Under the pieces are notes generated by a model. That model worked only from the letters and a program-made list of their open reading frames with translations. It searched no databases and was not told the origin of the DNA. From the NCBI RefSeq assembly GCF_000768315.1, contig NZ_AQQX01000002.1, positions 248,001 to 312,000 on the forward strand: a stretch of DNA of 64,000 bases, read 5' to 3'. Below are positions 11,939 to 57,688 of the stretch, in pieces. Numbering within the stretch: position 1 is the stretch's first letter; the number at the start of each line of letters is the position of its first letter. The position numbers and the translations under genes were made by a program. This DNA comes from Pseudooceanicola atlanticus (lineage in GTDB: Bacteria > Pseudomonadota > Alphaproteobacteria > Rhodobacterales > Rhodobacteraceae).

Positions 11939-11982
11939 ACCGACGCAATACCGACGTGACACCGACGTAATACCGACGCGGG
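11939..11982. repeat. 11-bp tandem array, copy A (ACCGACG units)
   Basis: Four ACCGACG units start at 11939, 11950, 11961 and 11972, a strict 11-bp period, with variable AAT, GAC or GGG between them. On the other strand the unit reads RCGTCGGTRTY. It lies in the 164-bp gap between the convergent ends of the ATPase and DHA2 pump genes. Related arrays are at 29611 and 57648. The rest of the gap shows no gene. Confidence 0.85.
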
Positions 11983-12007
11983 TTTTCAGGGTGTTAGGTG
12001 TCTCGGA

Positions 12008-13555
12008 TCATTCCGCCGGCGTGGTCTGCTGACGGCTGGTCGATCCCGGCCCCAGAGGCAATTCCACCAATCGGGTCGACGCCAGGCAGGCCACCGCCGC
12101 CACCGCGGCCCCGACGAAGAAGATCGGTGTCAGCGCATCGGCAAACCCTTGCAGAACAGCGCCCTGGCTCTCTGTTGGCAACGCGTCCACCATCTCGCCG
12201 GTCAGCTCGCGAATCTCGTCGACCTGTGGCAGCAGCGGCTTCACGTGCTGCCCCAGCCCAAGGGTGAAGATCGCACCGAAGACCGACGTCCCGATGGACC
12301 CGCCGATCAGCCGGAACATGTTGGCACTCGCCGTCCCGACCCCCAGATGTTCCCGCGGCACCGCCGTCTGGATCGACACGATCCCGACGCTCATCGTGGG
12401 GCCGATCCCGATACCGACGAAGAAGAGGAAAATGGTGATCACCCAGAGCGGCGTATCCGGCCCGATCGTGGTCATCAGCAGCATGGCCACTGTCAGGATC
12501 GACGTTGAAATCGTTGGCAAAATTTTGTAACGGCCCGTGCTGGTGATGAACCGGCCCGCCACGAAGGACGTCCCGATCAGACCCACCATCATCGCCACCA
12601 GGTAGAGGCCCGAGCTGATCGGATCCACGTGTTTCACGACCTGCAGGAAGAGCGGCATGAAGGCGATCGTGCCGAACATCGCCATCCCCACGAGGAAGTT
12701 CACCCCGTTGGCCGCCTGGTAGTTGCGGATGCGGAACAGATCCAGCGGCATGACAGGTTCGGCCGCGCGCCGCTCGGCCGAAATGAAGCCCACCAGCGCC
12801 ATGGGGGCCAGCGCCAGCAGGAACAGCACCGGCAGCGAGGACCACGCATAGACCGTGCCCGCCAGGTTGGCGATCAGCACGAAGGTCGACAGCAGGATCA
12901 TCAGCAAGGCGGAGCCCACGAAATCCATCTTGTGTTTGCGGTGATCCTCCTGCGCGGGCAGCGACCGGCTCAGGATCACAAAGGCCAACACGCCGATGGG
13001 GAAATTCACGAAGAAAATCCAGTGCCAGCTGACCGACTGAACCAGGAACCCGCCCAGCAAGGGCCCGACAACAGTGGAGAATCCAAAGACGCTGGACAAT
13101 GCCCCCTGCGCCCGGCCGCGTTCGCGCGGCGGCAGAACGTCGGCGACCACGGCCATCGACACCACGATCAGCGCGCCGCCGCCCATGCCCTGGACGAACC
13201 GCCCGGCGATCAGCATCGCCATGCTGCCCGCAACGCCGCAGATCAGGCCGCCGAACAGGAACACCCCGATGGCCGCCTGAAGCACGATCTTGCGACCGTA
13301 CATGTCGCCCAGCTTGCCCGCGATCGGCGCGCCCACGGTCGAGGCCAGAAGGAACGCTGTCACAACCCACGAGATATAGGACAAACCGCCGAGATCGCTG
13401 ACGATTTTCGGCAGGGCCGTGGTGACGATTGTATTGCCGGTCGAGGCCAGGAACAGGGTCGATGCAACCGTGATCAGCACCACCCGCAAGCTGGCTGGAT
13501 CAAGATCGGGCACAGCCTCCATCGCGGGGCCATCTGGATGGGATTGCTCTTGCAT
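12008..13555 (-). CDS. DHA2-family MFS drug efflux transporter (14 TMS)
   Basis: 515-aa inner-membrane proton antiporter of the EmrB/QacA (DHA2) type. Motif A is seen as GKLGDMYGRK, and motif C-like GPLLGGFL sits in TM5. About 14 hydrophobic segments are visible, and ALPKIVSDLGG follows TM1 as in EmrB. The start at 13555 is chosen because AAAGGAG precedes it; an ATG 33 bp upstream lacks this. It is divergent from a MarR regulator, a common arrangement in which MarR represses the pump. The substrate is unknown. Confidence 0.93.
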   Translation of the reverse strand: MQEQSHPDGPAMEAVPDLDPASLRVVLITVASTLFLASTGNTIVTTALPKIVSDLGGLSYISWVVTAFLLASTVGAPIAGKLGDMYGRKIVLQAAIGVFLFGGLICGVAGSMAMLIAGRFVQGMGGGALIVVSMAVVADVLPPRERGRAQGALSSVFGFSTVVGPLLGGFLVQSVSWHWIFFVNFPIGVLAFVILSRSLPAQEDHRKHKMDFVGSALLMILLSTFVLIANLAGTVYAWSSLPVLFLLALAPMALVGFISAERRAAEPVMPLDLFRIRNYQAANGVNFLVGMAMFGTIAFMPLFLQVVKHVDPISSGLYLVAMMVGLIGTSFVAGRFITSTGRYKILPTISTSILTVAMLLMTTIGPDTPLWVITIFLFFVGIGIGPTMSVGIVSIQTAVPREHLGVGTASANMFRLIGGSIGTSVFGAIFTLGLGQHVKPLLPQVDEIRELTGEMVDALPTESQGAVLQGFADALTPIFFVGAAVAAVACLASTRLVELPLGPGSTSRQQTTPAE

Positions 13556-13633
13556 AATGCTCCTTTGACCGGCGGAATGGTGGGGCATCCGGTCTCGGCG
13601 TCAAATGTGCGGTTTGAAACCGCCAGCTTTGGT

Positions 13634-13664
13634 GTCATATATGTGACGACGACAGTTACATGTC
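13634..13664. promoter_or_regulatory. Two dyads, probable MarR operator
   Basis: GTCATATATGTGAC (13634-13647, 12 of 14 positions symmetric) and GACAGTTACATGTC (13651-13664, GACA/TGTC arms) start 17 bp apart between the divergent pump and MarR start codons. Imperfect palindromes of this size are typical MarR sites. Binding by this regulator is inferred. Confidence 0.5.
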
Positions 13665-13715
13665 AAGAGCACGTATTTTTGGGAGGGTTCTGTCATAGGA
13701 ACGCGTGACGATGAA

Positions 13716-14294
13716 ATGAAGGCCATTCTCGACGGTTTCGGGGTCGATGGCGAAACCTCGGACCACGCGCTGGAACTGGACGCGATCCTGCAGGCGTGGC
13801 GACGCCGTGTGCAAAAGCGCGAGCTGGGTGAGATGGCCCTGCGGGAGCTGAACCTTCCGCTGGACCTGCCCAAGCTGGACGTGATGATCGCGATCTGGGC
13901 CCCATCGAATGAATTCGGCGCCACCGGAGCGGATGAAACCATGGTCGCCACCATCGCGTCCCGCCTTGGCATCGACCCGTCCCGCGCCTCCCGCCTTGTC
14001 AGCGAACTGATCACCGAGGGCTACGCCGCCCGCGCCGTCAGCCAGCAGGATGCCCGCCGCACCATCGTCACCCTGACCGCGCGCGGCAATGCCGTCGTCA
14101 CCGCGGTGCGGACGATCAAGTTCCTGATCCTGGGCTCTTTCCTCGCCGATTGGAGCGAGGAAGAGATCGCGACCTTCACCCCCTTGCTCAAGCGGTTCTC
14201 GCTCTGGGCGGACGAGGTCGACAAGACCGCGCCGGAGAGATTCCGGGCCGAAATTGCCTCTTTGCGGGCGGGTCTGGACGAAGGGCAGGATTGA
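13716..14294 (+). CDS. MarR-family transcriptional regulator
   Basis: 192-aa winged-helix regulator. The central region has the MarR recognition-helix pattern (TMVATIASRLGIDPSRASRLVSELITEGYAAR, about residues 75-105) and the wing (SQQDARRTIVTLTARG), with long N- and C-terminal helices for dimerisation. It is transcribed divergently from the DHA2 pump and has two dyads in its promoter, so it probably represses the pump and itself until a ligand binds. The ATG at 13716 has only a weak upstream Shine-Dalgarno sequence. Confidence 0.9.
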   Translation: MKAILDGFGVDGETSDHALELDAILQAWRRRVQKRELGEMALRELNLPLDLPKLDVMIAIWAPSNEFGATGADETMVATIASRLGIDPSRASRLVSELITEGYAARAVSQQDARRTIVTLTARGNAVVTAVRTIKFLILGSFLADWSEEEIATFTPLLKRFSLWADEVDKTAPERFRAEIASLRAGLDEGQD

Positions 14295-14331
14295 CCTCGC
14301 CAAGGGCGGGCTTTGCCCCTATGTTCCCCTT

Positions 14332-16734
14332 ATGTCCAGCCTGCCCACCCGATTTGAAACCTGGTTCGCGGAACGCGGGTGGTCGATCCATCCGCATCAG
14401 AGCCAGATGCTGGATCGTGCCTCTGCCGCTTCGCTTCTGCTGATCGCGCCCACCGGGGGCGGCAAGACGCTGGCCGGGTTCCTGCCCACGCTGGTGGAAC
14501 TGGCCGATGGCGATCACGAAGGGCTGCACACGCTCTATGTCTCTCCGCTCAAGGCGCTGGCGGCTGACATCCGGCGCAACCTGTCGACCCCGATCGAGGA
14601 GATGTCTCTGCCCATCCGGGTCGAGGACCGCACGGGCGATACGCCCTCCTCGCGCAAGCGGCGGCAACGGGCGGACCCGCCGCATATCCTGCTGACGACG
14701 CCGGAAAGCCTGGCGCTGATGACATCCTACGAGGATGCGGCGCGAACCTTTCGCGGACTGAAACGGATCGTGGTGGATGAAATCCATGCGCTAGCCGACA
14801 GCAAACGGGGCGATCAGCTGTTCCTGGCGCTGGCGCGTCTGCAACGGCTTTGCCCCGATCTGCGGCGCGTCGGCCTGTCGGCCACGGTCGAGGATCCGCA
14901 GGCCATCGCACGCCTGCTGGCCCGTCATCCCGACCCTTGCGAGATCCTGCACGCCGATCCCGGCCCCGACCCGGATATCCGCATGCTGGAGACCGAGGAG
15001 AACCCGCCCTGGTCCGGCGGCGGCGGGGCCTATGCGATCCCCGCGGTGCTGGAGCAGATACGCCAGCACAAGATCACCCTGATCTTCCACAACACCCGCG
15101 CCCAGGCCGAGATCTTCTTTCACAATCTCTGGCTGGCGAACGAAGACGCGCTGCCCATCGGGATCCATCACGGGTCGCTCGACCGGCAACAGCGGGAACG
15201 GGTCGAAAAGGCCATGGTGCAGGGCAAGTTGCGGGCTGTGGTCTGCACCGGATCGCTGGACCTGGGTATCGACTGGGGCGACGTGGACCTGGTGATCCAG
15301 GTCGGCGCCCCGAAGAACGTGAAGCGGCTGGTCCAGCGGATCGGGCGCGCCAATCACCGCTACAACGCCCCGTCCAAGGCGCTTCTGGTCCCCGCCAACC
15401 GGTTCGAGGTCGTCGAATGCGTTGCCGCGCTGGAGGCGGTGAAAGCCCATGACCTGGACGGTGATCCGCGCGGGCCGGGGCCGCGCGACGTGCTGTGCCA
15501 GCATATCCTCGCCACGGCCTGTGCCGGCCCGTTCGCCGCGGATGACCTGTTCGCCGAAGTGAAGACCGCCGGCGCCTATGTCAGCCTGACGCGCGCGCAA
15601 TTCGATGCCTGCATGGATTTCTGTGCCACCGGTGGCTACGCGCTGCGGGCCTATGACCGGTGGCAGCGCCTGATGCAGAATGCCGAAGGGCTATGGCACC
15701 TCCGCGATCCGCGCGCCTCCCAGTTGATCCGCATGAACCTGGGCACGATCCACGACAGCGACAAGCTGAAGGTGCGGATGCGTTATGGCGGGGGCCGCCC
15801 CCTGGGTGAGGTCGAGGAGCATTTCGCCTCGCAGCTGAATGCCGGCGACACGTTCCTGATCGGCGGCCGCATCGTGCGCTATGAAGGCCTGAAGGAGATG
15901 ACGGTGGAGGTCACCCGCGCCGCGGTGCGCAAGCCCAAGATCGCCGTGTTCTCGGGCACGAAGTTCGCCACCTCCACCCAGCTGTCGCACCGCATCCTGC
16001 GGATGTTCCAGCAGGACAGCTGGCCCGCCCTGCCCCGGCACACCGCCGAATGGCTGGCCTTGCAACGCGAGGTCTCGTCCCTGCCCCAGCCCGGCCGCCT
16101 GCTGATCGAGAGCTTTCCCCATGACGGGCGCCAGCATCTGTGCCTCTACGGCTTTGCCGGGCGCAACGCGCAGCAGACGCTTGGCCTGATCCTGACCAAG
16201 CGGATGGAGGAGATGGGGCTGGACCCTCTGGGCTTCGTCTCGACCGATTACGCCACGCTGATCTGGGGGCTGGAGGCCGTGCGCGACCCCGCCCCCCTGC
16301 TGGACCGCTCTGCCCTGCTGGACGGGCTGGACCGGTGGCTGGCCGGCAACGCAGTGATGAAGCGGACATTTCGCGTCGCCGCCCATATCGCCGGGCTGAT
16401 CCAGCGCAACGCGCCCCAGGCCCGCAAGACCGGGCGGCAGGCGACGTTTTCCTCCGACATCCTGTACGACACGCTGATGAAATATGATCCCGACCACCTG
16501 TTGCTGGACATCACCCGCGAAGAGGCGATGCGGGGCCTCGTCGATTTCGGCCGCATCGAAGAGATGCTGGACCGCGTGGGCGACCGCATCGACTGGACCC
16601 CGCTGGAACGCGTCTCGCCCCTTGCCGCGCCGCTCTTCCTCGAGGTCGGCAAGGTGCCGGTCGAAGGGGCGGCCCAGGAACGGCTCGTCGCGGAGGAAGC
16701 GGAGCGGCTGATGAGCGAGGCGGGGCTCGCATGA
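14332..16734 (+). CDS. Ligase-associated DEXH-box helicase (Lhr-like)
   Basis: 800-aa superfamily 2 helicase of the ligase-associated DNA-damage-response type. Seen in order: Walker A APTGGGKTLAGF, motif Ia VSPLKALAAD, DEIH box VVDEIHAL, SAT motif LSATVEDP, and motif VI QRIGRANHR near residue 340, then a winged-helix and Lhr-core region. Proteins of this type occur beside PdeM and, elsewhere, an exonuclease and an ATP-dependent ligase. Only helicase and PdeM are present here. The ATG at 14332 gives the usual length of about 800 aa. Confidence 0.93.
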   Translation: MSSLPTRFETWFAERGWSIHPHQSQMLDRASAASLLLIAPTGGGKTLAGFLPTLVELADGDHEGLHTLYVSPLKALAADIRRNLSTPIEEMSLPIRVEDRTGDTPSSRKRRQRADPPHILLTTPESLALMTSYEDAARTFRGLKRIVVDEIHALADSKRGDQLFLALARLQRLCPDLRRVGLSATVEDPQAIARLLARHPDPCEILHADPGPDPDIRMLETEENPPWSGGGGAYAIPAVLEQIRQHKITLIFHNTRAQAEIFFHNLWLANEDALPIGIHHGSLDRQQRERVEKAMVQGKLRAVVCTGSLDLGIDWGDVDLVIQVGAPKNVKRLVQRIGRANHRYNAPSKALLVPANRFEVVECVAALEAVKAHDLDGDPRGPGPRDVLCQHILATACAGPFAADDLFAEVKTAGAYVSLTRAQFDACMDFCATGGYALRAYDRWQRLMQNAEGLWHLRDPRASQLIRMNLGTIHDSDKLKVRMRYGGGRPLGEVEEHFASQLNAGDTFLIGGRIVRYEGLKEMTVEVTRAAVRKPKIAVFSGTKFATSTQLSHRILRMFQQDSWPALPRHTAEWLALQREVSSLPQPGRLLIESFPHDGRQHLCLYGFAGRNAQQTLGLILTKRMEEMGLDPLGFVSTDYATLIWGLEAVRDPAPLLDRSALLDGLDRWLAGNAVMKRTFRVAAHIAGLIQRNAPQARKTGRQATFSSDILYDTLMKYDPDHLLLDITREEAMRGLVDFGRIEEMLDRVGDRIDWTPLERVSPLAAPLFLEVGKVPVEGAAQERLVAEEAERLMSEAGLA

Positions 16735-16765
16735 TCCGGTGGTCGCGTGGGATGCAGAGGACGGA

Positions 16766-16836
16766 AAGGGGCGCTGCCCCTTGCCGCCAAAGCTGCGCTT
16801 TGACGGCTACCCCGGAGTATTTTTGGCAAGATGAAG
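16766..16836 (+). repeat. Intergenic hairpin-plus-motif element, copy 1
   Basis: A 7-bp stem (AAGGGGC / GCCCCTT, loop GCT, 16766-16782) is followed by AAAGCTGCGCTTT and then CCCGGAGTATTTTTGG-CAAGATGAA (16811-16835). A closely similar hairpin and motif occurs on the minus strand at 40056-40106. This fills most of the helicase-pdeM gap. Confidence 0.6.
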
Positions 16837-16885
16837 CAGGTGGGGCGCGCCCGGCGGCCCCGCCCCGCCCTGTAACGGAGCACGC

Positions 16886-17548
16886 ATGAGAGGGTTCGAG
16901 TTTTCCTTGGCCGGGGTGGAGCTGGTCGCGCGCGGCTCTGGCGCCCTGTGGTGGCCGGGGCTGCGCATTCTTGTCGTGTCGGACCTGCATCTTGGCAAGT
17001 CGGAACGCGTGCTGCGGCTGGGCGGCGCGCCCCTGCCCCCCTACGAGGCACAGGACACCCTGGCGCGCCTGGAGCAGGATATCGAGGCCTGCGATCCGGC
17101 GCTGGTCATCTGCCTGGGCGACAGTTTCGATGACGACCTGGCCGCGCAGGGACTGCCGGAGCCTATCGAGACCTGGCTGACCCGCCTCCAGGCCGGCCGG
17201 CGCTGGACCTGGATCGAGGGCAACCACGATCCCGGCCCCGTCGGGCTGGGCGGCACGCATCTGTTCGAACTGCCGCAGCCGCCGCTGACCTTCCGCCATA
17301 TCGCGCAGCCGGGCGCGGCCGGAGAGGTGTCGGGCCATTACCATCCGAAAGCGCGGCTGTCGGCACGCGGTCGCTCCGTGTCGCGTCGGTGTTTCCTGCT
17401 GGATTGCGACCGCCTGATCCTGCCCGCCTATGGCACCTATACCGGCGGCCTGCGCTCGGAAGACGCGGCGCTGACCGGCCTGATGCGGCCCGAGGCGCTG
17501 GCGATCCTCACAGGTCCGGTGCCCAGGCCCATTCCGATGCCGCGTTAG
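16886..17548 (+). CDS. pdeM: Ligase-associated phosphoesterase PdeM
   Basis: 220-aa metallophosphoesterase of the ligase-associated DNA-damage-response group. The two-metal motifs are all present: SDLHLGKSER (residues about 31-40), GDSFDD, GNHDPGP and GHYHPKARL. By family it is a nuclease or phosphodiesterase acting with the Lhr-like helicase encoded 151 bp upstream. The insert in the gap may separate transcription from the helicase gene. Confidence 0.92.
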   Translation: MRGFEFSLAGVELVARGSGALWWPGLRILVVSDLHLGKSERVLRLGGAPLPPYEAQDTLARLEQDIEACDPALVICLGDSFDDDLAAQGLPEPIETWLTRLQAGRRWTWIEGNHDPGPVGLGGTHLFELPQPPLTFRHIAQPGAAGEVSGHYHPKARLSARGRSVSRRCFLLDCDRLILPAYGTYTGGLRSEDAALTGLMRPEALAILTGPVPRPIPMPR

Positions 17549-17605
17549 GACTGTTCGGGGGGCGCGGGTCGGGCTATTGCTCTTCCCGGCAATCGGGGAG
17601 GACCA

Positions 17606-18019
17606 ATGGACAGCCAGACAGAGGCACGCATTCGCGAGAGCTTTGCCAAACAGGCGATGATGATGACACTCGGGGCGGAACTGGAGGCGATCACCACCGG
17701 TGAGGTGTCGATCCGCGCCCCGATCCTGCCGATCGCGCGCCAGCATACCGGACACGCCCATGCGGCGCTGAGTTTTGCCATCGGGGACACGGCGGCGGGT
17801 TACGCCGCATTGACCGTGATGCCGGAGGGGTCCGAGGTCGTCACCGCCGAGATCAAGATCAACCTGCTGGCCCCTGCGGACGGGGATTACCTGCTGGCCA
17901 CCGGCCGGGTGGTGAAACCCGGACGGCGACTGGTTGTCGTGACCTCGACCGTCACCGCCGTCACCGGCACGCAGCGGCGGGACGTGGCCATCCTGCAGGG
18001 CACGATGATGGCGCTGTGA
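17606..18019 (+). CDS. PaaI-type hotdog-fold thioesterase
   Basis: 137-aa protein with the hotdog thioesterase fold of the PaaI/YdiI group: RQHTGHAHAALSFAIGDTAAGYAA (the HGGxxxxLAD-like region, about residues 48-72), then TAEIKINLLAPADGDYLLATGRVVKPGRRLVV. Such enzymes hydrolyse aryl- or acyl-CoA thioesters in the cytoplasm. GGGGAGGA precedes the ATG. No pathway neighbour identifies its substrate. Confidence 0.87.
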   Translation: MDSQTEARIRESFAKQAMMMTLGAELEAITTGEVSIRAPILPIARQHTGHAHAALSFAIGDTAAGYAALTVMPEGSEVVTAEIKINLLAPADGDYLLATGRVVKPGRRLVVVTSTVTAVTGTQRRDVAILQGTMMAL

Positions 18020-18037
18020 CGCTCCGCGCGGGCCGGA

Positions 18038-18940: not shown

Positions 18941-18955
18941 GGAACCCTCTTTGGA

Positions 18956-19510: not shown

Positions 19511-19586
19511 GACAGGGTCCAGAAGCGCTAGAGGGATGGCGGGCGGGGCGACGGGCCCGCAAGGGGCCGAGCGCCGGGCGACGAGA

Positions 19587-23025: not shown

Positions 23026-23041
23026 CCGCATATCCTCATAG

Positions 23042-27844: not shown

Positions 27845-29182
27845 CTAGTTCTGGAGCGGCGACCAGGACGGGTCGGAAGCGGCGCCTTCGGTCCGGACCT
27901 GCTTCAGATTTCGGCCTGAAATATCAACGGAATAGAGAGAGGATGCCCCCTGCGCCCCCTGGGTTTCGCGGGTGAACATGATGACACGGCCATTGGGCGA
28001 CCATGTCGGCCCCTCGTCCAGGAAGGACGCGGTCAGCAGGCGTTCCTCGCCGCCATCGGTGCGCATCACGCCGATATGGAACCGGCCCTTGCTCTGCTTG
28101 GTGAAGGCGATCAGGTCACCGCGCGGGGACCAGACCGGCGTGCCGTAGCGACCCTGGCCAAAGCTGATCCGCGTCGCCTCTCCGCCGGTGGCGGGCATGA
28201 TGTAAAGCTGCTGGGACCCGCTCCGGTCGCTTTCAAACACGATCCGGCTACCATCAGGCGAAAAGCTGGGCGCGGTTTCGATCGATGGCGCGGAGGTCAG
28301 CCGCGTCGACCGGCCAGAAGTGATGTCCATGCTGTAGATGTCGGTATTGCCGCCGTCCGTCAGCGAATAGACGATGGTCTGGCCATTTGGCGAAAAACGC
28401 GGCGCGAAGGACATGGAGCCGCTGCCGGTTTCCAGCACACGCCGCCCGACCGAAGCCACGTCGAGTACGTAGATCCGCGGGAAACCCGTCTCGTAGCTGG
28501 TGTAGAGCACGCGGTCGCCGGTGGGGCTGAACCGCGGCGCCAGCACGATCGAGGAACTGTCGGTCAGGTACTGCACGTTGGCGCCGTCATAATCCATGAT
28601 GGCCAGTCGCTTGCGACGATTGTCTTTGGGGCCGGTTTCCGCGACATAGACGACGCGGCTGTCGAAATAGGGGCCTTCGCCTGTGATCCGGGAATAGACC
28701 GCGTCGGCCACCTTGTGGGCCATGCGCCGCCATCCCGAGGTCGTGCCATTGAATTGCAGGCCCGACCCCATCTCCTGCCCCGAAAAGACATCGTAGAGCC
28801 GGAACTTGACCGTCAGCGCCCCGCCTGCCCCGACGCTCACAGCGCCGGTAATCAGGGCCTGAGCGTTGATCGCCTTCCAGTCGGCATATTGCACCGGGCT
28901 GGAGAAGCTGGTGATCCGCGCGATATGCGCATCGGGCGGGATTTCGCGGAACAGGCCGGTGCCCATCAGGTCCTGCGCGACGACGCGGGTCAATTGCTGC
29001 GACATGTCGGCGGCGGCCGTGTTCTCGGCCACGAAATTCGGCACGGCGAAGGGCAGCGGTTCGATCACACCCTCGGTGATCTCGATCCGCAGCGGACCGT
29101 CCTGGGCCAGCGTGGCAAGGGGCAGGACCGCCAGAACGGCAGCGGCAAGAACCGAAAGGAACCTGGTCATGTGTCTCATCAT
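27845..29182 (-). CDS. tolB: Tol-Pal system protein TolB
   Basis: 445-aa periplasmic beta-propeller. The signal peptide ([23 protein letters not shown]) is followed by the TolB N-terminal domain and repeated WD40-like PD40 units ([62 protein letters not shown]). The ATG at 29182 overlaps the tolA stop as ATGA; a second ATG at 29170 gives a tidier signal peptide and may be the real start. Confidence 0.96.
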
Positions 29183-30336
29183 TTGATCCGCATCTTCTCA
29201 GGATTGAATGTCATTTCAATGTCGCGCCATTGGCCGTACTTGTCGACCGGAAGCCCGTAACCGTTGGTGCCGCAGCGGATGATAGCCCGCCGGGCGGCCT
29301 CGAATGCCTGTCTGGCAGCCTCGTTCGACCCGCCCGAAGACGACACCATGCGGATCGTGTCGATCCGGGGGCGGGCATCTTCGGTCATCGAGACGGACAC
29401 GACCACGGTGGTGCGCAGCGCCTCGGTCGAGAGGGAGCCGGTATTCCAGCACGACGACACGGCAACGCGCAGGGCGTCCTTTTCGCCCGACGTCAGCGGC
29501 GGACCGGACTGGCCCTGGGGCACGTTGCTGCTGTCCGCAGACGAACTGGAGCCCGCAAGCGCGCGTTCAAGGGCCGAGTTGATCGCGTCCTTCTGGGTCT
29601 GATTTTCGGACGTCGGTTCCACGTCGGTATCACGTCGGTCTTGCGTCGGTGCGGTTGTCGGTTCCGGCTCGGGCTCTGCGGCGGCGGTGCGCACGGGACG
29701 CGAGGTCGGCGGGCGCTTGGACACCTTGGGCGGCCCACCATCGGGCGTCGCATCCGGAGTGATCTGGGTCGTGGCTTCCTCGGGGGCGGCCTCTTCGGCT
29801 TCGGGTTGCACCTCGGCGGCGTCGGGCGTCGGCGCGGTCGGCGTCTGCGGCACCTCGTCGGTCGCCACGTCGGGATTGGGCCGCAACACGGGGCGCGGCG
29901 CGACGCGGGGAATGCTGCGCGGGGTTTCCGCGGGCTGTTCCGGCATCAGCACGGCCGTATCCTCGGACGGAGGTGTGATCTCCGGCGGCGTATCGGCGAC
30001 CTCGGCCTGGGGCGGCGCGATCTGCGGGCGCTCCGGCGCGGTTTCCGCCTCGGGTGCCGCGGCCTCTGCCGGGGCGGCCTGTTCGGGCGGGGTGTCCTGG
30101 GTGGGCGTGACCTGGGGCGCGTCGGTGGCCGGCGCGGGCTGGGGCAGTTCCGACACCTCGTCCGTCGCGCCGGGGGGCTGGACCGCCGGGGTCAGCGCCG
30201 CGAATTCCTCGGGCGAGATGAGAGCGACATCCGTCACCTCGATCGTGTCCTCGGGGGGCGCGGCGAAACCGCCGAACATGAGCCAGCCGATAAGGGCCAG
30301 GTGGCCCGTCCCCGATATGATGTGCCCGACATGCAT
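29179..30336 (-). CDS. tolA: TolA-like energy transducer of the Tol-Pal system
   Basis: 385-aa inner-membrane protein. One N-terminal membrane helix ([17 protein letters not shown]) has the Ser/His-type positions used to contact TolQR. A very long Pro/Glu/Ala/Thr-rich acidic linker (residues about 45-260) follows in place of the Lys/Ala helix of enteric TolA. The C-terminal TonB/TolA domain (about 290-385, VSSCWNTGS...[14 protein letters not shown]) would bind TolB or Pal. The linker includes an 11-bp DNA repeat array (29611-29662). Spacing to tolR is 13 bp. Confidence 0.9.
29611..29662. repeat. 11-bp tandem array, copy B, inside tolA
   Basis: CGTCGGT starts at 29611, 29622, 29633 and 29644 (period 11) with a fifth variant TGTCGGT at 29656. 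The period is not a multiple of three, so the encoded linker ([14 protein letters not shown]) is not a protein repeat; the repetition is at DNA level. It matches the array at 57648 over about 45 bp, including the final 12-bp step. Confidence 0.85.
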
Positions 30337-50378: not shown

Positions 50379-50402
50379 GCGCGATACCTTTGTGAATGCT
50401 GG

Positions 50403-50432
50403 AATGGCGGGGGGCGACCTCCGCCATTTTTT
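50403..50432 (+). terminator. Rho-independent terminator of thrS
   Basis: AATGGCGG (50403-50410) pairs with CCGCCATT (50421-50428), and six Ts follow. It lies 24 bp after the thrS stop. The remaining gap to 50581 shows nothing further. Confidence 0.85.
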
Positions 50433-50581
50433 GTTCGGGAATGGCGCTGCGCACATGTTCGCGCGCGTAACGTGGAGGGACGGCAGCACCCACTCGGGTC
50501 GGTCACGGCCCTCAGCGCGTCACGTCAACCGAGGCACGAAACCCGCGATACAGGCGCCACACAATGTGCCGCCGCCAAACC

Positions 50582-51229: not shown

Positions 51230-51299
51230 GACAGGTGATCTGATCCGCGCGGCACCCGCTTCAAGGGCCCGCTTCAAGAGGCGCCGCGTGCGGAGGCGG

Positions 51300-51941
51300 T
51301 TACCAGCGCAGCCAGCGTCCCGCCGCCCAGGCCCCGATCGCCGCCGAAGCGAGGATGCCCAGCGAATACCAGGTGGCGTAGAACAGCGGCGAATCCTCGG
51401 TGCAGAAGGTCGAGTAGATCACCGTCGACAGGCCCGCCGCAGCCAACCCCGCCATCGCACCCGTGCGGCGCAGATGCACCGGGGCACCGCGCCGGAATGC
51501 GGCCAGCAGGCCCGCCGTCATCGGTAGCGACAGCACGGTGATCGCGGGCAGGCAGATCGGGATGGAATGGCCGATGAAATCGCGCCAGCGCTCGGCCGGT
51601 GGGGTGACCGCAAAGCTCCAGCCGAAGAGCAGAACCGCCAGCGCGGGCACGGCCCAGACGATCCAGCCGGTGCGGCCGGCGCCGGCGCCTGGCCGGGCCG
51701 TGCGCACGGCCAACACCAGCGCCAGGGCGAACAACGCAAGCGGCAGCCCCATCTTGGCCAGCACCAGCGGATCGGCCATATGCCCCAGCAGATCGGGCCG
51801 CGGCCCCAGCACCAGAAGGTACAGCACCAGCGCCCCAACAAACCCGAGCGCCAGCCCAGCCCACGCGCGCCGTTCGACCGAAGGGCCCGGCGGCGGCGCG
51901 GCATCCTGTGCCAGCATGGTGATCAGATCATCCGTTTTCAT
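51300..51941 (-). CDS. nrsF: NrsF (DUF1109) membrane anti-sigma factor
   Basis: 213-aa protein with a cytoplasmic N-terminus (about 25 residues) and six membrane segments, typical of DUF1109/NrsF. Only two cysteines, C130 and C180, are present; Cys pairs at nearly these positions are important for metal response in Caulobacter NrsF as I recall it. It is 31 bp downstream of the sigma factor gene on the same strand and would hold the sigma factor inactive. Confidence 0.9.
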
Positions 51942-51972
51942 CCCAGGGTCACACCCGTTTCCGTTCTCAATC

Positions 51973-52515
51973 TCAGTCTTCGATTTCGGCCTCGGCCAGG
52001 TCTTTCAGCCGCACCATGGCGCGGTGATAGGCGACCCGCACCGCGCCTTCGCTCATGCCCAGCCCGGTGCCGACCTCCTGCGCGCTGAGCCCTTCGATCC
52101 CGACGCCCCGCACGATCCGCGCGGAACGGTCGTCGATCCGGTCCAGCAACGCAGCCAGGTCGCGGGCCGCGGTGGTTTCACCCCCCTCGTCGGGCAGGAT
52201 GTCGGCCAGGTCGTCGATATCGACCTCTGTTCCGACCTTGCCGCGCCGCCGACCGGCATCCGCCGCCTTGTAGCGCGCAATGGCATAGAGCCATGGCGTC
52301 ACCGGATCACTCACACGCCATGTATGGCGCTTGGCATGAACCGCAAGAAGGACCTCCTGCAGGATGTCCTCCACGTCCTCGGCACCGCCGGTCCGGGCGC
52401 GCACGATATTGCGCAGCACCGGGGTGATCCCGGTCAGGAAGGCGGCATAGGCCGTGGCGTCTCCGCCAAGCCCCCGGCGCAGCAGATCGCCCCATCGTTC
52501 ATTGCGATCCGACAT
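51973..52515 (-). CDS. sigF: ECF sigma factor, SigF type
   Basis: 180-aa extracytoplasmic-function sigma factor. Region 2 is [21 protein letters not shown] ... [19 protein letters not shown], and region 4 is [39 protein letters not shown] before the ATG at 52515 decides the start over an ATG 12 bp upstream. Gene order with NrsF and the divergent bufferin operon matches the Caulobacter SigF system. Confidence 0.92.
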
Positions 52516-52526
52516 TCCCCTCTCCA

Positions 52527-52551
52527 TTCGCGCCCGGGACCGAAACGTTAC
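52527..52551 (-). promoter_or_regulatory. Weak SigF-like promoter before sigF
   Basis: On the minus strand GTAACG and CGAA occur 15 bp apart upstream of sigF, one base shorter than the bufferin-operon promoter. Transcription would start only a few bases before the ATG, so autoregulation is uncertain. Confidence 0.25.
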
Positions 52552-52597
52552 AGCCGCTCGCGAAAATCCTTCATTTCATCACTCGTTCGTGAGCCGT

Positions 52598-52623
52598 GTA
52601 ACGACCCCGCCCTGCCCCGCGAA
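52598..52623 (+). promoter_or_regulatory. SigF-type promoter of the bufferin operon
   Basis: GTAACG (52598-52603), a 16-bp spacer and CGAA (52620-52623) match the GTAACC-N16-CGAA form I recall for Caulobacter SigF. It lies 78 bp upstream of the bufA ATG and points towards it. Confidence 0.75.
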
Positions 52624-52701
52624 AGGAGAGGCACGGACGCCACGATAGGCGCCGCAACCTTACAGCGCCAGCCCGGCGCAACAACACGGAGTTATGTTCC
52701 C

Positions 52702-53022
52702 ATGACCAACAAGGCCCTGATCCTCACCGCCCTCGCCGCAGCCGTCAGCACCGTCGGTGTCGCATCCACGGCTGCCGCTGCCGACAACGTCAAGTGCTAC
52801 GGCATCTCGATGGCCGGCAAGAACGACTGCGCCGCTGGCCCGGGCACGACCTGCGCCGGGACGTCCAAAGTCGATTACCAGGGCAACGCCTGGACCCTGG
52901 CCGAAGAAGGCACCTGCGAATCCGCCATGCCCGTGCTGGCCGACGGCACCGAGGTGATGCTGCCGGAAGGCAAGATGGGCAGCCTGGAAGCGCTTGAGCG
53001 TGACCTGCCGATGGACGGCTGA
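52702..53022 (+). CDS. bufA: Bufferin precursor BufA (DUF2282)
   Basis: 106-aa exported precursor of a cysteine-modified metal-binding peptide (bufferin, DUF2282). The signal peptide (residues 1-27, ending AAAA) is followed by a core with four Cys at 32, 43, 51 and 72 ([22 protein letters not shown]). In known bufferins, Cys residues are turned into thiooxazoles by the DUF692 enzyme, and the product chelates copper. An unusual acidic tail ([12 protein letters not shown]) ends it. The next two genes are the modifying pair. Confidence 0.9.
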
Positions 53023-53112
53023 TCCAGACCAGGTTGCGGGCCGGTTCGTCCGGCCCGCCAACCGCATCCGGCGCCCCGCCGCAGGGCGCCTCACCAGGAA
53101 CCGGAGGACATC

Positions 53113-53967
53113 ATGAGCATCACCAAACTGCCCCACGGGCCCGGCGTCGGCTACAAGCCGCAGCATTACGCCGCGATCCTGGACGACGCCGCCCCGGTTC
53201 GATGGCTGGAAATCCATGCGGAGAATTACACGGGCGCCGGCGGACGGCCGATCGCCCAGCTGCGCCACCTGGCGGAGCGGTTTCCCATTTCGGTCCATGG
53301 GGTTGGCCTGTCGATCGGCGGCGAAGGGCCGCTTGATCCCGACCACCTGGCCCGGCTGAAAGACTTGTGCGACTGGCTGAACCCGGCCAGTTTCTCGGAA
53401 CACCTGGCGTGGTCGACCCATGACGGCGCGTTCCTGAACGACCTCCTGCCCCTGCCCTACAACGCCGCCACGCTGACCCGCGTCGCCGACCATATCGATG
53501 CCCTGCAAGATGCGATCGGGCGGCCGATGCTGCTGGAGAACCCCTCCAGCTACCTGGCCTTCACCGACAGCACGATGAGCGAGACGGAGTTCCTGGCAGA
53601 GGTCTCGCGCCGCACCGGCTGCGGGCTGTTGCTGGACGTGAACAACGTCTTCGTCTCGGCCACCAATCTTGGCCTCGATGCCCGTCAATACGTCGCCGAC
53701 TTCCCGATGGATCGCGTCGGAGAGTTGCACCTGGGCGGCCATGACGAGGACGAAGATGACCATGGCGCTCCCCTGCTGATCGACAGCCACGGGCGCGAGG
53801 TCGCCGACCCGGTCTGGACCCTTCTGGACGACGTGCTGGCCCGGCTGGGCCCTGCGCCCCTGCTGATCGAATGGGATACCGACGTGCCCGACTGGCCGAC
53901 CTTGGCGGCCGAGGCGCGGCGCGGCGAAACCGCCCTCACCCGTGCCGCGAACCGGGTGGCGGCATGA
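53113..53967 (+). CDS. bufB: BufB, MNIO-family (DUF692) modification enzyme
   Basis: 284-aa multinuclear non-heme iron oxidase (MNIO, DUF692), a TIM barrel. LPHGPGVGYKPQHYAAIL, WLEIHAENYTG, ISVHGVGLSIGG, LLLDVNNVFVS and ELHLGGHD give the conserved His/Glu/Asp/Asn metal ligands. It should modify Cys in the BufA core peptide. GGAGGAC precedes the ATG, and the gene overlaps bufC by 4 bp. Confidence 0.94.
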   Translation: MSITKLPHGPGVGYKPQHYAAILDDAAPVRWLEIHAENYTGAGGRPIAQLRHLAERFPISVHGVGLSIGGEGPLDPDHLARLKDLCDWLNPASFSEHLAWSTHDGAFLNDLLPLPYNAATLTRVADHIDALQDAIGRPMLLENPSSYLAFTDSTMSETEFLAEVSRRTGCGLLLDVNNVFVSATNLGLDARQYVADFPMDRVGELHLGGHDEDEDDHGAPLLIDSHGREVADPVWTLLDDVLARLGPAPLLIEWDTDVPDWPTLAAEARRGETALTRAANRVAA

Positions 53968-54722
53968 CCGGGCAGACGGGGTTTCACGCGGCCCTGCTGG
54001 ACCCGTCCGCACCCGTGCCGCCGGGCCTGACCGACGGGGCGGGTCGCGCTGCCGGTCGCCGCTTTGCCGTCTATCGCAACAACGTGGCCGTCAGCCTGAC
54101 CGAGGCGCTGATCGAAGGCTTTCCCGCCTGTCATCGCCTTCTGGGCGACGACACGTTCCGCGGCATGGCCGGGGCCTACCTGCGGGAGCATCCCCCGGCC
54201 TCGCCGGTCATGGCGCAGTTCGGGGCGGATCTGCCGGGCTTCCTGGACGCCGCGCCGCAATTGGCCCGGATGCGGTGGCTGGCGGATGTGGCGCGGCTGG
54301 AATACGGGTTGCGCCTGTCCTACCACGCCGCCGACGCGGTGCCGCTCGATGGGACGGCGCTGGCCGCGATGGCAGCAGAGGACCTGTCGGCGTCGACCTT
54401 TGGACTGGCCCCGGCTATGCGGCTGTTACGCTCCGACTGGCCGGCCCTGTCGATCTGGCGGAAGGCGATGAACCCGTCTGCCCCGCAAGCCGCGAACCGG
54501 CCCGAGGATATCCTGATCGCCCGCCCCGATTACGACCCGGAGCCGCATCTGCTGATGCCCGGCGACGCGGCCTTTGTCGCTGCCCTGTCGGACGGCGCGC
54601 CGCTGGGCCAGGTGGCGGAACAGGCGCTGACCGCGCAACCGGACCACGACACCACACGCATCCTTGGCCTGCTGCTGCAGACCGGAAGCCTGACCCCACC
54701 ACAGCCGGAGACCATGCCATGA
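53964..54722 (+). CDS. bufC: BufC, DUF2063 partner protein
   Basis: 252-aa protein with an N-terminal DUF2063 domain (FHAALLDPSAPVPPGL ... FAVYRNNVAVSLTEALIEGFPACHRLLGDDTFRGMA), the partner that binds the precursor for the MNIO enzyme. The C-terminal half (about 110-252) is less conserved and ends with a domain that may recognise the leader. ATGA overlaps with both bufB and the DoxX gene show translational coupling. Confidence 0.92.
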   Translation: MTGQTGFHAALLDPSAPVPPGLTDGAGRAAGRRFAVYRNNVAVSLTEALIEGFPACHRLLGDDTFRGMAGAYLREHPPASPVMAQFGADLPGFLDAAPQLARMRWLADVARLEYGLRLSYHAADAVPLDGTALAAMAAEDLSASTFGLAPAMRLLRSDWPALSIWRKAMNPSAPQAANRPEDILIARPDYDPEPHLLMPGDAAFVAALSDGAPLGQVAEQALTAQPDHDTTRILGLLLQTGSLTPPQPETMP

Positions 54723-55282
54723 CCGATCCCACCACCCCGCTCGTACGGCTCAGCCCGGTCTTGCCGATCCTCGCCCGCCTGACCTTTGCCGCCGTGCTGC
54801 TGCAATATTTCTGGAGCTCGGCCCTGACCAAGATGGGTAACGGTGTCTTCGGGCTCTTTTCGCCGTCTCTGGGCGCCTACGCGCAGATCTTCCCCCGTCA
54901 GATGGAGGCGGTCGGCTATGACGCGTCGCAACTGGGTGTGCTGCACTGGGCAGTTGTCGTGGCGGGCATGTGGGCGGAATTCCTGTTGCCCGCATTGATC
55001 GTCGTGGGGTTGCTGACACGGCTTTCGGCGCTTGGCATGATCGGGTTCATCGCGGTGCAGAGCCTGACCGACCTCTACGGTCACGGCGCGATCGAACATG
55101 CGGAAACCCTGGGGGCGTGGTTCGACAAGACGCCGGATGCGCTGATCCTCGACCAGCGGGCGTTCTGGGTCTACCTGCTGCTGACGCTGGTGGTGATGGG
55201 CGGCGGTGTGCTGTCGCTGGACCGCGTGGTCTTCAGAAATGCGACTTCGGCTCGTCCGGCTTCCCCGCAGCCAGCGCCATGA
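54719..55282 (+). CDS. DoxX-family membrane protein of the bufferin operon
   Basis: 187-aa protein with four membrane segments and the DoxX pattern (RLTFAAVLLQYFWSSALTKMG, VVAGMWAEFLLPALIVVGLLTRLSALG). It overlaps bufC by 4 bp and is the last gene of the operon. DoxX proteins often accompany DUF692/DUF2063 genes; redox or membrane quinone functions have been suggested, not shown. Its 3' end overlaps a convergent gene by 50 bp. Confidence 0.9.
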   Translation: MTDPTTPLVRLSPVLPILARLTFAAVLLQYFWSSALTKMGNGVFGLFSPSLGAYAQIFPRQMEAVGYDASQLGVLHWAVVVAGMWAEFLLPALIVVGLLTRLSALGMIGFIAVQSLTDLYGHGAIEHAETLGAWFDKTPDALILDQRAFWVYLLLTLVVMGGGVLSLDRVVFRNATSARPASPQPAP

Positions 55283-55601
55283 GGCCGGCAGCCCCGCAGA
55301 AGGCCATCGGGAAGAGCGTGAAGAACCCGTAGCCAAAGCCCATATACATCCCCGCGACCGACACCAGCAGAAGCACCCCGCCAACCAGCGCGTTGGCCCG
55401 GGCCATCCCTGCCCCGGCCAGCGCCAGGATGGGTGAGACAACGGCGGCCACGCGGATCGCCTCGACATTGGCGACCTGCTGGAACAGGCCATCGACCTCT
55501 CCGAAATGGTCGATGGCAGCGGTGTAGCCATAGCTGAACAGCCCCACGACCAGCCCCATCAGCCCGCCGATCAGCCCCAGGATCAGTGCCGCGTTGCGCA
55601 T
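55233..55601 (-). CDS. Four-span membrane protein, unknown
   Basis: 122-aa protein with four hydrophobic segments (LILGLIGGLMGLVVGLFSYGY, AAVVSPILALAGAGMA, ALVGGVLLLVSVAGMYM, LFPMAFCGAAGLMALAAG) and short loops. No family recognised. It follows the ArsC-like gene by 4 bp and converges on the DoxX gene with a 50-bp overlap, the longest same-window convergent overlap of two good genes. Confidence 0.75.
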   Translation of the reverse strand: MRNAALILGLIGGLMGLVVGLFSYGYTAAIDHFGEVDGLFQQVANVEAIRVAAVVSPILALAGAGMARANALVGGVLLLVSVAGMYMGFGYGFFTLFPMAFCGAAGLMALAAGKPDEPKSHF

Positions 55602-55604
55602 CCG

Positions 55605-55925
55605 TTAAGCCTTTACATTCAAAGATTTGCGAGTGTCCGCGGTCCAGCCCAGATACATCGTATCGCCATCCACGATCAGCGGGCGCTTCATCAGCGCGGG
55701 ATGTTCGCCCAGCAGGTCGCGGGGCGGACGCGCCCGCTCTTCCTCGCTGAGGCCGCGCCAGGTGGTGGAGCGGCGATTGACGAGGTCATCCCCGAAGACC
55801 TCGAGCGCGCGATCCAGAATCGGTGACGGCAGCGGCGAATCCCTGACATCCGAGAATGTTGCATCAGGAAGTGCCTTGCGCGCAGCCCGGCACGTGTCGC
55901 AGTTTTTTAGCCCAAAGAGTTCCAT
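55605..55925 (-). CDS. ArsC/Spx-like (YffB) protein
   Basis: 106-aa thioredoxin-fold protein of the arsenate reductase-like family. LKNCDTCRAARKAL carries the active Cys near residue 9 and a second Cys (CxxC). RPLIVDGDTMYLGW matches the RP(L/I)(V/L) segment. Similar to YffB, whose substrate is not arsenate with certainty. It probably shares a transcript with the downstream small membrane protein. Confidence 0.88.
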   Translation of the reverse strand: MELFGLKNCDTCRAARKALPDATFSDVRDSPLPSPILDRALEVFGDDLVNRRSTTWRGLSEEERARPPRDLLGEHPALMKRPLIVDGDTMYLGWTADTRKSLNVKA

Positions 55926-56130
55926 TACAGCCTTTTTCGTGAACCGTTTATGTTCAGATAGGTAACAATTCGAAGAGTTTCACCCCAGTTTTGCTTGCTT
56001 TTTACATGGCATATGCACCTTCTTTTGTATGACACGGGTGTTTGGATCCGTCCGACCCGAAGAGCGGACAGGCTGGTTTCCGTGTCATTTCCCGCAATTC
56101 CGCGGGGCGAAGACAATAAGGAGACGCGGC

Positions 56131-56337
56131 ATGCCGACGGGCACCGTTAAGTGGTTCAATACAACCAAAGGATACGGGTTCATCGAACCCGAAGAAGGCG
56201 GAAAAGACGTATTCGTTCACATTTCCGCGGTCGAGCGGTCCGGACTGACCGGATTGGCGGACAACCAGAAAGTCGGCTACGAGCTGCAGGACGGGCGTGA
56301 CGGACGCCAGATGGCAGCCGACCTCAAGCTTCTGTAA
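56131..56337 (+). CDS. Cold-shock protein (CspA family)
   Basis: 68-aa single OB-fold RNA chaperone: GTVKWFNTTKGYGFIEPEEG (RNP1) and KDVFVHISAVE (RNP2). AAGGAGACG precedes the ATG. A leader of up to 200 bp between the divergent ArsC-like gene and this one is AT-rich and could hold a temperature-sensitive 5' UTR, but no specific structure was identified. Confidence 0.95.
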   Translation: MPTGTVKWFNTTKGYGFIEPEEGGKDVFVHISAVERSGLTGLADNQKVGYELQDGRDGRQMAADLKLL

Positions 56338-56367
56338 AAAATCATTATTTCCGCACTCGGCCTGGGC

Positions 56368-56652
56368 TCAGGCCGGGTCCTTGCGGGGCAGGTCTGTCCA
56401 GGCCTCGCCCATGGCGACGATGCAGCTTTTGCCTGAGGCATAGGTGATGACCATCGTCCAGTCACCGCGTTCGTCGGTCCAGACCTCGACCACCTGTTCG
56501 GGCCCTCTGAGACCGATGGACTGTTTTTCCGCGCGCAACTGACGTTCCAGCTTGGTCTTCATCCGAGGGGTGTCATCACAGATGACATCGGCAATCGGAT
56601 TGGCCGCGGCGGGCGCGGCGAAGAGGAGTGTCAGAATGAATGCTCGGATCAA
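56368..56652 (-). CDS. Small exported protein, unknown
   Basis: 94-aa protein from a probable TTG start at 56652 with AGGCAGG upstream, giving the signal peptide MIRAFILTLLFAAPAAA followed by NPIADVICDD. Two Cys (VICDD and KSCIV) may form a disulfide. No family recognised. An earlier in-frame ATG at 56766 would add 38 residues unlike a signal peptide. Convergent with the cold-shock gene. Confidence 0.65.
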   Translation of the reverse strand: MIRAFILTLLFAAPAAANPIADVICDDTPRMKTKLERQLRAEKQSIGLRGPEQVVEVWTDERGDWTMVITYASGKSCIVAMGEAWTDLPRKDPA

Positions 56653-56735
56653 ACTGGGCCTGCCTTTTCTTGGTTTCACCCAGTGTAACAGTTTTATGAA
56701 TGCGTTGCGAGAATCGAATGCGTCCGCGCCCGGCG

Positions 56736-56770
56736 CAAAAGAATAGGCGCGCCCGTTTCCGGACACGCCT
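56736..56770 (-). terminator. Terminator of the 56801-57088 gene
   Basis: AGGCGCGCCCG (56745-56755) and CGGACACGCCT (56760-56770) form an 11-bp stem with two G-U pairs (minus strand). On that strand ATTCTTTTG follows. It lies 31 bp beyond the gene's stop. Confidence 0.65.
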
Positions 56771-56800
56771 TTGAAAATTCGCGATCTTTCGGAATGAAGA

Positions 56801-57088
56801 TCAGTATTGCGGGGATTTCGACCCGGTATATCCGCCCGGTGATTTCGACCCGTATTCGGCGCGCGGCGCGTAGTATTTCTTGCGCTGGACCGGGTGGCGG
56901 TTCCAATCGGAATAGGTGGCGTGGGTATTGGGCGTACCGCAGCAGATCACGCCGTTCAGCACAATCGGCTGAAGGCCGGACGGGCAGTAATTGGCGGATG
57001 CGGGATAGGTGAACAGCACGGGTTCCGCCGCGGCGGGCGCCGCAAGGGCCATCAGGCCCAGTCCTGCGGTCAACATCAAAGTCTTCAT
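56801..57088 (-). CDS. Small exported protein with C-terminal GSKSP repeats
   Basis: 95-aa protein, signal peptide MKTLMLTAGLGLMALAAPAAA. The mature part has three Cys (NYCPSG and VICCGT) and a basic, Tyr-rich tail with GSKSP occurring twice at the C-terminus (YGSKSPGGYTGSKSPQY). No family recognised. It has its own terminator, so it is a single-gene unit. Confidence 0.7.
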   Translation of the reverse strand: MKTLMLTAGLGLMALAAPAAAEPVLFTYPASANYCPSGLQPIVLNGVICCGTPNTHATYSDWNRHPVQRKKYYAPRAEYGSKSPGGYTGSKSPQY

Positions 57089-57181
57089 TCGTGAGCCCTC
57101 GTCAAATCTTTGCCTTCTGGCGGTCTGACAAAAGCTTAACACCTTGACGGTGAAACGCAAAACCTGATTGCGCCTTTTGCG

Positions 57182-57589
57182 TTACCCTGTGGTACGAAAG
57201 AGCCAGTTGGTGATCAGCACCCCCACCAGGGCCGCCGATCCGGTCAGCAGGGTCCCCCAGGCGACATCGACGATGACCATCTTGGGCGCCCAGTCCCGCA
57301 GGGTGGCGTAATTGGTGAATTCATAGGTCCCGTAGGCCATCGCCCCCAGCAGGGCGCCATTGGTAAACGCCTGGAAAGACTGGCCTTTCAACGCCGGGAT
57401 TGACACGAACCAGACCAGCCCCCCGACGTAGAAGAGATAGAAGATCGCGGCCGGAACCAGCCGCAAATCGTCCAGCAGCAGGGAGGAGATGCGGGTTTCG
57501 AACAGGGGCCGCATCACGTTCTTCAGCATGATTGCGTCGAGGCCCAGGAAAAACAGGGCGGTGGTGAAGTAGAGAACGAGAATTTGCAT
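57182..57589 (-). CDS. DUF2177-family membrane protein
   Basis: 135-aa protein with four membrane segments and the DUF2177 layout: VLYFTTALFFLGLDAIML, VPAAIFYLFYVGGLVWFVS, GALLGAMAYGTYEFTNYATLRDW, VDVAWGTLLTGSAALVG. The AYGTYEFTNYATL and D-AWG motifs are characteristic. Function unknown. An 11-bp repeat array lies just upstream of it. Confidence 0.9.
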   Translation of the reverse strand: MQILVLYFTTALFFLGLDAIMLKNVMRPLFETRISSLLLDDLRLVPAAIFYLFYVGGLVWFVSIPALKGQSFQAFTNGALLGAMAYGTYEFTNYATLRDWAPKMVIVDVAWGTLLTGSAALVGVLITNWLFRTTG

Positions 57590-57647
57590 GGTGACTCCGG
57601 GACATTCGAAAGGGATACGACCGGGGTCGGAAGGCGGATCGGTTTTA

Positions 57648-57688
57648 CGTCGGTATCACGTCGGTATTACGTCGGTGCGGGCGTCGGT
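57648..57688. repeat. 11-bp tandem array, copy C (CGTCGGT units)
   Basis: CGTCGGT starts at 57648, 57659, 57670 and 57682 (steps 11, 11, 12). It lies between folA (minus, ends 57716) and DUF2177 (minus, starts 57589), so it could sit in the DUF2177 promoter region. It is closely similar to the array inside tolA. Confidence 0.85.

Follow-up and report, generated by a model that had tools for sequence, protein, structure and literature searches.

Within a 64,000-nt stretch of the Pseudooceanicola atlanticus genome (contig NZ_AQQX01000002.1, positions 248,001 to 312,000; hereinafter designated the window), the heptamer CGTCGGT is repeated head to tail, about once per helical turn, in three separate arrays, which raises the question of what such arrays are for. 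The genome holds 81 of them, mostly between genes, away from promoter regions, evenly spaced, polar with respect to local GC skew and built on a consensus specific to the species. On these grounds we propose that the arrays serve as oriented landing platforms, scattered along the chromosome, for a sequence-specific DNA-binding protein of their own that would handle the chromosome rather than single genes, a reading from sequence to which we give slightly better than even odds (about 0.52). A preliminary description of the window had offered a multi-site platform or a domain-organising signal among its possibilities. This fits the genome-wide evidence best, the platform itself being what we infer from that evidence.

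Three oriented arrays in the window

In each array the unit is CGTCGGT plus 4 nt, repeated at exact 11-bp steps, with outlying units after a 12-bp step in arrays 2 and 3 (Table 1). The three arrays, their common unit and the 11- and 12-bp steps had all been recognised in the preliminary description and were recovered here. A small correction concerns orientation: array 1 lies on the minus strand and arrays 2 and 3 on the plus strand. The spacer order given (ATC, then ATT or CTT, then GCG) likewise applies to arrays 2 and 3 and not to array 1, which reads ATTA, GTCA, ATTG, GCA.

Table 1 Positions and composition of the CGTCGGT arrays and their outlying units in the window
Feature	Position	Strand	Composition
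Array 1	11939..11978	-	4 exact CGTCGGT units, 11-bp steps; spacers ATTA, GTCA, ATTG
Array 2	29611..29650	+	4 exact CGTCGGT units, 11-bp steps; spacers TTCC, ATCA, CTTG
Extra unit of array 2	29656..29662	+	TGTCGGT, after a 12-bp step
Degenerate first unit of array 3	57637..57643	+	GATCGGT, 11 bp upstream, in 11-bp register
Array 3	57648..57676	+	3 exact CGTCGGT units, 11-bp steps; spacers ATCA, ATTA
Extra unit of array 3	57682..57688	+	CGTCGGT, after a 12-bp step

Two arrays, 1 and 3, lie between genes, which agrees with the number in the preliminary description. Array 1 sits between convergent genes, with the stop codon of one (10530-11843) 95 bp away and the end of the other, a major facilitator superfamily gene (12008-13489), at a distance of 29 bp, and array 3 has a DUF2177 gene on one side and a dihydrofolate reductase gene on the other. 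Array 2 lies antisense within the Pro/Glu-rich linker of a minus-strand gene (29179-30336). Its location between TolB and ExbD/TolR matches makes this gene tolA by position, and the gene has no Pfam match of its own. A two-unit pattern allowing up to three mismatches matches the window 11 times versus 1.11 expected, nine times in the arrays and twice elsewhere. None of 100 dinucleotide shuffles of the window attained 11 matches, so the concern that random sequence would give the pattern equally often can be set aside.

Abundance and anatomy across genomes

Across the whole of the window's genome (hereinafter designated G000) the two-unit pattern matches 161 times and its reversed control not once, which removes the other early doubt, that only the three window arrays might exist. 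A profile that uses sequence alone, trained on 82 arrays from named genomes and run without a reversed control, finds 81 arrays in G000 and 90 in Pseudooceanicola sp. HF7 (G001; hereinafter HF7). The loci analysed in G000 are 78 of 79 places (L256 has no exact pair), and in HF7 58 of the 60 fetched among 90 model matches (L317 and L321 have no exact pair). The named set started from at least 101 loci, from which 12 were removed as simple repeats or as lying outside Rhodobacterales. The 89 retained, including 22 from one Silicimonas metagenome-assembled genome (MAG) and L036, which is identical with locus L283, supplied 82 loci for the model, 81 for the anatomy and 87 for GC skew.

Invariance of the 7-mer is partly a selection effect, as loci were chosen by exact patterns, and the conserved frame extends beyond it. 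In the 81 four-unit arrays from named genomes, A/T-rich positions recur near -27, -17 and -7, an A precedes the first unit, the spacers follow AT-N-R and GC follows the last unit. The unit consensus has no inverted symmetry; the arrays are direct repeats. Three to five head-to-tail sites, one per helical turn, could place protomers, or the tandem DNA-binding domains of a single protein, side by side along the same face of the helix, and the A/T-rich tracts, which lie immediately upstream at comparable intervals, may help the DNA to bend or wrap. Downstream of 57 HF7 arrays, TTAA begins at 20-29 bp in 38 instances, compared with about 6% of background intergenic 60-bp windows that contain it. 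The unit form itself differs between the two genomes: GTCTGT occurs in 54 of 58 HF7 arrays vs none of 78 in G000, and CATCGG in 24 of 78 G000 arrays vs two of 58 in HF7.

Spacing along chromosomes

Arrays occur about once per 45-170 kb and are more evenly spaced than random on both measures used (the coefficient of variation, CV, of the gaps and the number of short gaps) in three of five genomes, G000, G307 and G015, and on one measure in the other two. The 55 gaps in G000, from 59 of its ~81 arrays on four large contigs, average 46.8 kb with a CV of 0.66 vs 0.94 for random placement (P=0.0004). Only two gaps fall below 15 kb against 15 expected, a number as low in none of 5000 simulations. 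In the single-contig genomes, with 74 of 77 (G307, length rounded) and 76 of 99 (G015) arrays among the matches listed, the CV is 0.71 (P=0.0006) and 0.75 (P=0.004), and gaps below 15 kb number six versus 19.4 and seven versus 17.3 expected, respectively. Selection would keep platforms apart, at a mean of ~45-50 kb in the densest genomes and more than 100 kb in others.

Every array match in G040 and G074 falls on the main contig (3.83 of ~4.6 Mb and 3.79 of ~4.4 Mb, sizes rounded), as if their other replicons were exempt. A plasmid collection gave no match for two array queries, and a search of viral_contigs returned a single exact pattern match, L396 (IMGVR_UViG_3300037791_000022). We therefore rejected a phage or plasmid origin.

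Gene context and the case for a transcriptional role

Gene classes rest on our own hexamer-based caller, trained on the window and the G000 and HF7 loci, and are rougher in other genera. Seventy of the 78 G000 arrays are intergenic, five lie within genes (all antisense), one overlaps a gene start and two are at stretch edges; the HF7 counts are 55, 0, one and two of 58. In the two genomes together, arrays between convergent genes outnumber those between divergent genes by 34 to 17, compared with 3516 vs 13783 bp in an array-free intergenic baseline drawn from the stretches around arrays (P=1e-12). Selection would hold platforms mostly outside genes and divergent promoter regions.

Some features would suit operators, terminators or antisense roadblocks. 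The head-to-tail 11-bp layout of 7+4 resembles PhoB-type boxes, arrays lie closer to gene ends than to gene starts (median 100.5 bp versus 145 bp), those between tandem genes are antisense more often than sense (47 vs 27, P=0.027), and some stand within 30 bp of a start codon, such as the one upstream of a lipoamide-dehydrogenase-like gene at L029. Against a transcriptional role stand the strong avoidance of divergent regions, an even spacing that a regulon would not be expected to show, and the lack of a common pathway among the neighbours. At 17 positions common to several genomes the 20 neighbouring proteins belong to unrelated Pfam families, many of them housekeeping (lipoamide-dehydrogenase-like, RimP, YebC, GatB, a NADH dehydrogenase subunit, valyl-tRNA synthetase) and the others not (CHAP, capsule synthesis, chemoreceptor). 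A promoter or operator regulon is disfavoured on these grounds. An RNA element was rejected: folding z-scores of array plus flank average -0.58 to +0.07, covariation is absent and the seven sources covered in Rfam gave no match. Overall, we consider regulation or termination of transcription very unlikely.

Arrays inside coding sequence also occur elsewhere. At L087 (7149-7189), L123 and L127, two Shimia species and one Rhodobacteraceae MAG carry them at corresponding positions, and the L087 coding sequence is valyl-tRNA synthetase by Pfam.

Polarity relative to GC skew

The array strand is usually the locally G-rich one. GC skew taken 0.1-2.4 kb on each side is positive on that strand at 72 of 78 loci in G000, 53 of 58 in HF7 and 79 of 87 in the named set, for which one skew test was also repeated without the 22 Silicimonas loci. 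It is positive at 13 of 15 loci each in G307 and G015 and, over 1.5 kb on each side, at 20 of the 21 distinct loci in G074 (the 30 fetched include repeats of one array). The bias holds in genes of either orientation and between genes, and third codon positions show it as well. At distances above 1 kb, downstream skew exceeds upstream skew (P=1e-4, 144 loci), an asymmetry that does not reach significance when HF7 (P=0.18) or the named set (P=0.32) is taken by itself. At 2.5-4.5 kb the downstream values of named loci are higher (P=6e-4; 33 upstream, 30 downstream), and at less than 1 kb there is no downstream excess (0.065 vs 0.077).

In the window as a whole (1-64000), local GC skew flips sign on a 10-kb scale, and the orthologous region of the array-less relative G006 looks broadly similar; the local skew amplitudes (0.018 in G006, 0.038 in the window) both lie inside the range of other genera.

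Distribution and shared positions

Among 22 genomes of the genus, three-unit matches (up to three mismatches) number 190 in G000, 242 in HF7, 106 in G015, 54 in G016 and, weakly, 19 in G018; the remaining genomes have 0-3, and controls 0-1 per strand. The four species most similar to G000 at window loci 1 and 2 (G002, G006, G009 and G019) show 0-2 background matches each. The caution in the preliminary description that close relatives might lack the arrays thus holds for these four; arrays do occur in further species of the genus and in other genera, in part at shared positions. A CGTCGGT survey of 394 genomes of the family gave one match or more in 46 of them and at least nine in 20, among them the window's genome. 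Loss of the protein in a lineage, followed by joint decay of its arrays, would account for the array-less species.

A drifted specificity was considered for G006 and set aside, as in 400 kb sampled from it no 6-mer recurs exactly over three 11-bp steps, and the seven inexact matches have no word in common; the absence looks real. The word TGTCGGGCA is in excess there (24 vs 5.1), and all 24 are scattered single occurrences.

Some positions and orientations, whose conservation the preliminary description had proposed to test, recur across genera: of 43 locus pairs in which both arrays have the same gene no more than 700 bp away, 34 agree in side and strand and nine do not (the pairs are not independent, and one of the 34 is a single locus fetched twice). 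At five positions common to G000 and HF7, GTCTGT is present in four of the five HF7 arrays and in none of the five G000 arrays. Unit form at common positions thus appears to follow species, not locus, which we read as selection by a species-specific factor; each species' unit would be kept matched to its own protein.

Other words in other genera

Matches of the reversed control in the family survey are concentrated in G249 (57), followed by G387 (7), G234 (5) and nine genomes with one each. Those in G249 are 11-bp arrays of GCAGCCA-type units, with 16 matches at up to one mismatch and ~13 distinct loci; none lies within a predicted gene, and TTAA is found upstream in six of 13 and downstream in three of 13. 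At the same stringency G387 gave no array. A de novo scan of 20-kb stretches from 18 further genera returned 19 matches, nine of them isolated and inexact and ten from one G074 array with units TGTMKGGCA. Words of this type match 53 times across the whole of G074 (control 0), corresponding to ~32 arrays, and of its 21 distinct loci 19 are intergenic and two genic. The existence of other words in other genera means that the CGTCGGT survey undercounts the system; protein and unit word may have diverged together there.

In the same 18-genus sample, 30 of 41 three-unit near-repeats at a 13-bp period fall in one stretch, L381 (G065:C1:30001-50000), which could reflect low-complexity coding sequence or a different tandem element. 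In the genus of G404, exact CGTCGGT units are combined with unusual GC-rich spacers (CCGG or CTGC, for example), possibly a further variant.

Taken further, the arrays might represent a landmark system new to Rhodobacteraceae, with a patchily inherited protein and ~20-100 oriented platforms whose word drifts with the protein between genera, a fast-coevolving chromosome marking that is possibly selfish or defence-linked; we hold this extension only tentatively. If the platform reading is right, this bacterial family carries a chromosome-handling system that our literature search, restricted to open-licence papers and yielding no description of these arrays, did not turn up. Neighbouring species with and without the system, and genera with different words, would then form a natural experiment, and chromosome spacing, polarity and protein-site coevolution would become directly testable.

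Weighing the platform reading

Several observations weigh against a chromosome-wide platform, beginning with the spacing and sampling results. In G040 (23 arrays, collapsed by hand from 41 rows) the CV of 0.69 is marginal (P=0.046) and gaps below 15 kb are undepleted (two versus 1.9 expected). In G074 (32 arrays, from 53 rows) the CV is random (0.92, P=0.42); gaps below 20 kb are absent there versus 4.9 expected (P=0.002). A second blind sample, of 15 genera, contained no convincing array. The four close species without arrays mean that the function is dispensable or replaceable.

Further points of this kind concern orientation, and bear equally on a polar guide or self-mark for a DNA translocase, nuclease or fork barrier, in the manner of KOPS (FtsK-orienting polar sequences), Chi or Ter. 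Along the chromosome, strand order of adjacent arrays is random or weakly clustered (P=0.31 in G307, 0.04 in G015, 0.66 in G040 and 0.09 in G074), and in G000 the strands alternate more than random, with 19 of 55 adjacent pairs alike vs 27.6 expected. A simple role tied to replication direction is therefore unsupported. A two-arc orientation fit, with ori and dif not located, gave P of 0.09 (G307), 0.012 (G015), 0.93 (G040) and 0.21 (G074), and simple replication-direction polarity was weak when tested. In array-less relatives, 14 of 16 skew values at the three window loci are positive, one is zero and one negative. With mostly the same sign at orthologous loci, the arrays are seemingly not the cause of the skew, and we dropped them as its source; array orientation tracks a local asymmetry that is present where arrays are absent too. 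The polar guide gains from the agreement of array strand and G-rich strand at most loci of all six sets, from the shift that third codon positions show in genes of either orientation and from the downstream excess beyond 1 kb. It loses from the weak or absent chromosome-scale orientation in five genomes, the skew of array-less relatives, the missing excess within 1 kb and the lack of significance in HF7 or the named set alone. Known systems of this kind have higher densities and shorter sites. We regard a polar guide as decidedly unlikely, and rank both it and a transcriptional role below the platform and the mobile element considered next.

The main rival is a non-autonomous mobile element of ~100-200 bp, like a miniature inverted-repeat transposable element (MITE) or a repetitive extragenic palindromic (REP) sequence, whose direct repeats would be transposase-binding sites. 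Insertion immunity would space the copies, purifying selection would clear them from genes and promoters, and array-less species would have lost the transposase. HF7 suggests such copying and so adds to the points against the platform: once arrays are masked, 154 locus pairs remain similar in their flanks, and in some the similarity extends over 112-130 bp at 87-91%, forming sub-families that share flanks. Ten flank queries, run on 316 kb of HF7 made up mostly of stretches around arrays, gave 36 matches beside arrays and one scored as away, which adjoins the L317 array missed by the exact pattern. The patchy distribution among genera agrees with mobility, as do the arrays in coding linkers of tolA and valS, which indicate that coding sequence can absorb arrays. 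In G000, by contrast, only eight pairs are similar in their flanks, at most over 85 bp at 82%, and the ~228-bp similarity of L117 and L124 (96%, within one Roseovarius MAG) looks like a segmental duplication. Positions and orientations common across genera, and a unit sequence at common positions that follows species, also speak against mobility. No clean empty site is readable at arrays 1 and 2 in comparison with array-less relatives, whose flanks are too diverged to define junctions, and the single viral_contigs match and the empty plasmid queries count on the same side. The mobile minisatellite suggested in the preliminary description finds a counterpart in the HF7 sub-families. A mobile element is in our judgement unlikely, less so than the polar guide; were it correct, its even spacing and its avoidance of promoters would make it an uncommon example of controlled insertion. 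A species-wide unit consensus could also arise by gene conversion or from recent copies, which takes from the case for a species-specific protein.

The stretch common to L117 and L124 comprises a gene 3' end, the array and its downstream flank. A downstream-flank sub-family of HF7 (L308, L312, L319, L323, L325 and L337) has a G-run/C-run, hairpin-like stretch beside the arrays.

Comparison with known systems

For the protein that would bind the platforms, we propose a role in chromosome organisation, segregation or maintenance. The arrays fall under none of KOPS, matS, Noc/SlmA, PhoB-type boxes, MITEs or RNA families, since at least one defining feature of each is missing or not settled. The sites of MatP (matS), Noc (Noc-binding sites, NBS) and SlmA (SlmA-binding sites, SBS) are single, short and mostly palindromic. 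The likeness to them would lie in dispersed sites for one protein acting chromosome-wide; the arrays differ in being three to five direct repeats at 11 bp, without the inverted symmetry of Noc and SlmA sites, and in a word that changes between genera. Unlike matS, which is confined to a single macrodomain, they occur all round G015 and G307, and all along the main contig in both G040 and G074.

PhoB/OmpR-type boxes share the 7-bp core, the 4-bp spacer and the head-to-tail 11-bp unit, and by analogy winged-helix protomers could sit side by side on the arrays. The arrays are unlike these boxes in having three to five units and in not marking the promoters of a regulon. With MITE and REP sequences they share short, dispersed intergenic repeats, patchiness between species and the HF7 sub-families, and they differ in a species-wide unit consensus at common positions and in that terminal inverted repeats, target duplications and recent full-length copies are not seen in G000. 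Structured RNAs are set apart by conserved structure or Rfam membership, neither of which the arrays display. KOPS share with the arrays over-representation and a polar motif tied to strand asymmetry; the arrays are long, sparse and without clear replichore order. PMC4786541 gives KOPS as GGGNAGGG in E. coli, oriented from the origin to dif, and describes a motif that varies between bacteria, a point of likeness that favours the polar guide.

A neighbour of array 1

The 437-aa product of the plus-strand window gene 10530-11843 has no Pfam match (E 0.001), and the last ~840 bases of the gene are 83-90% identical at the DNA level in 16 relatives.

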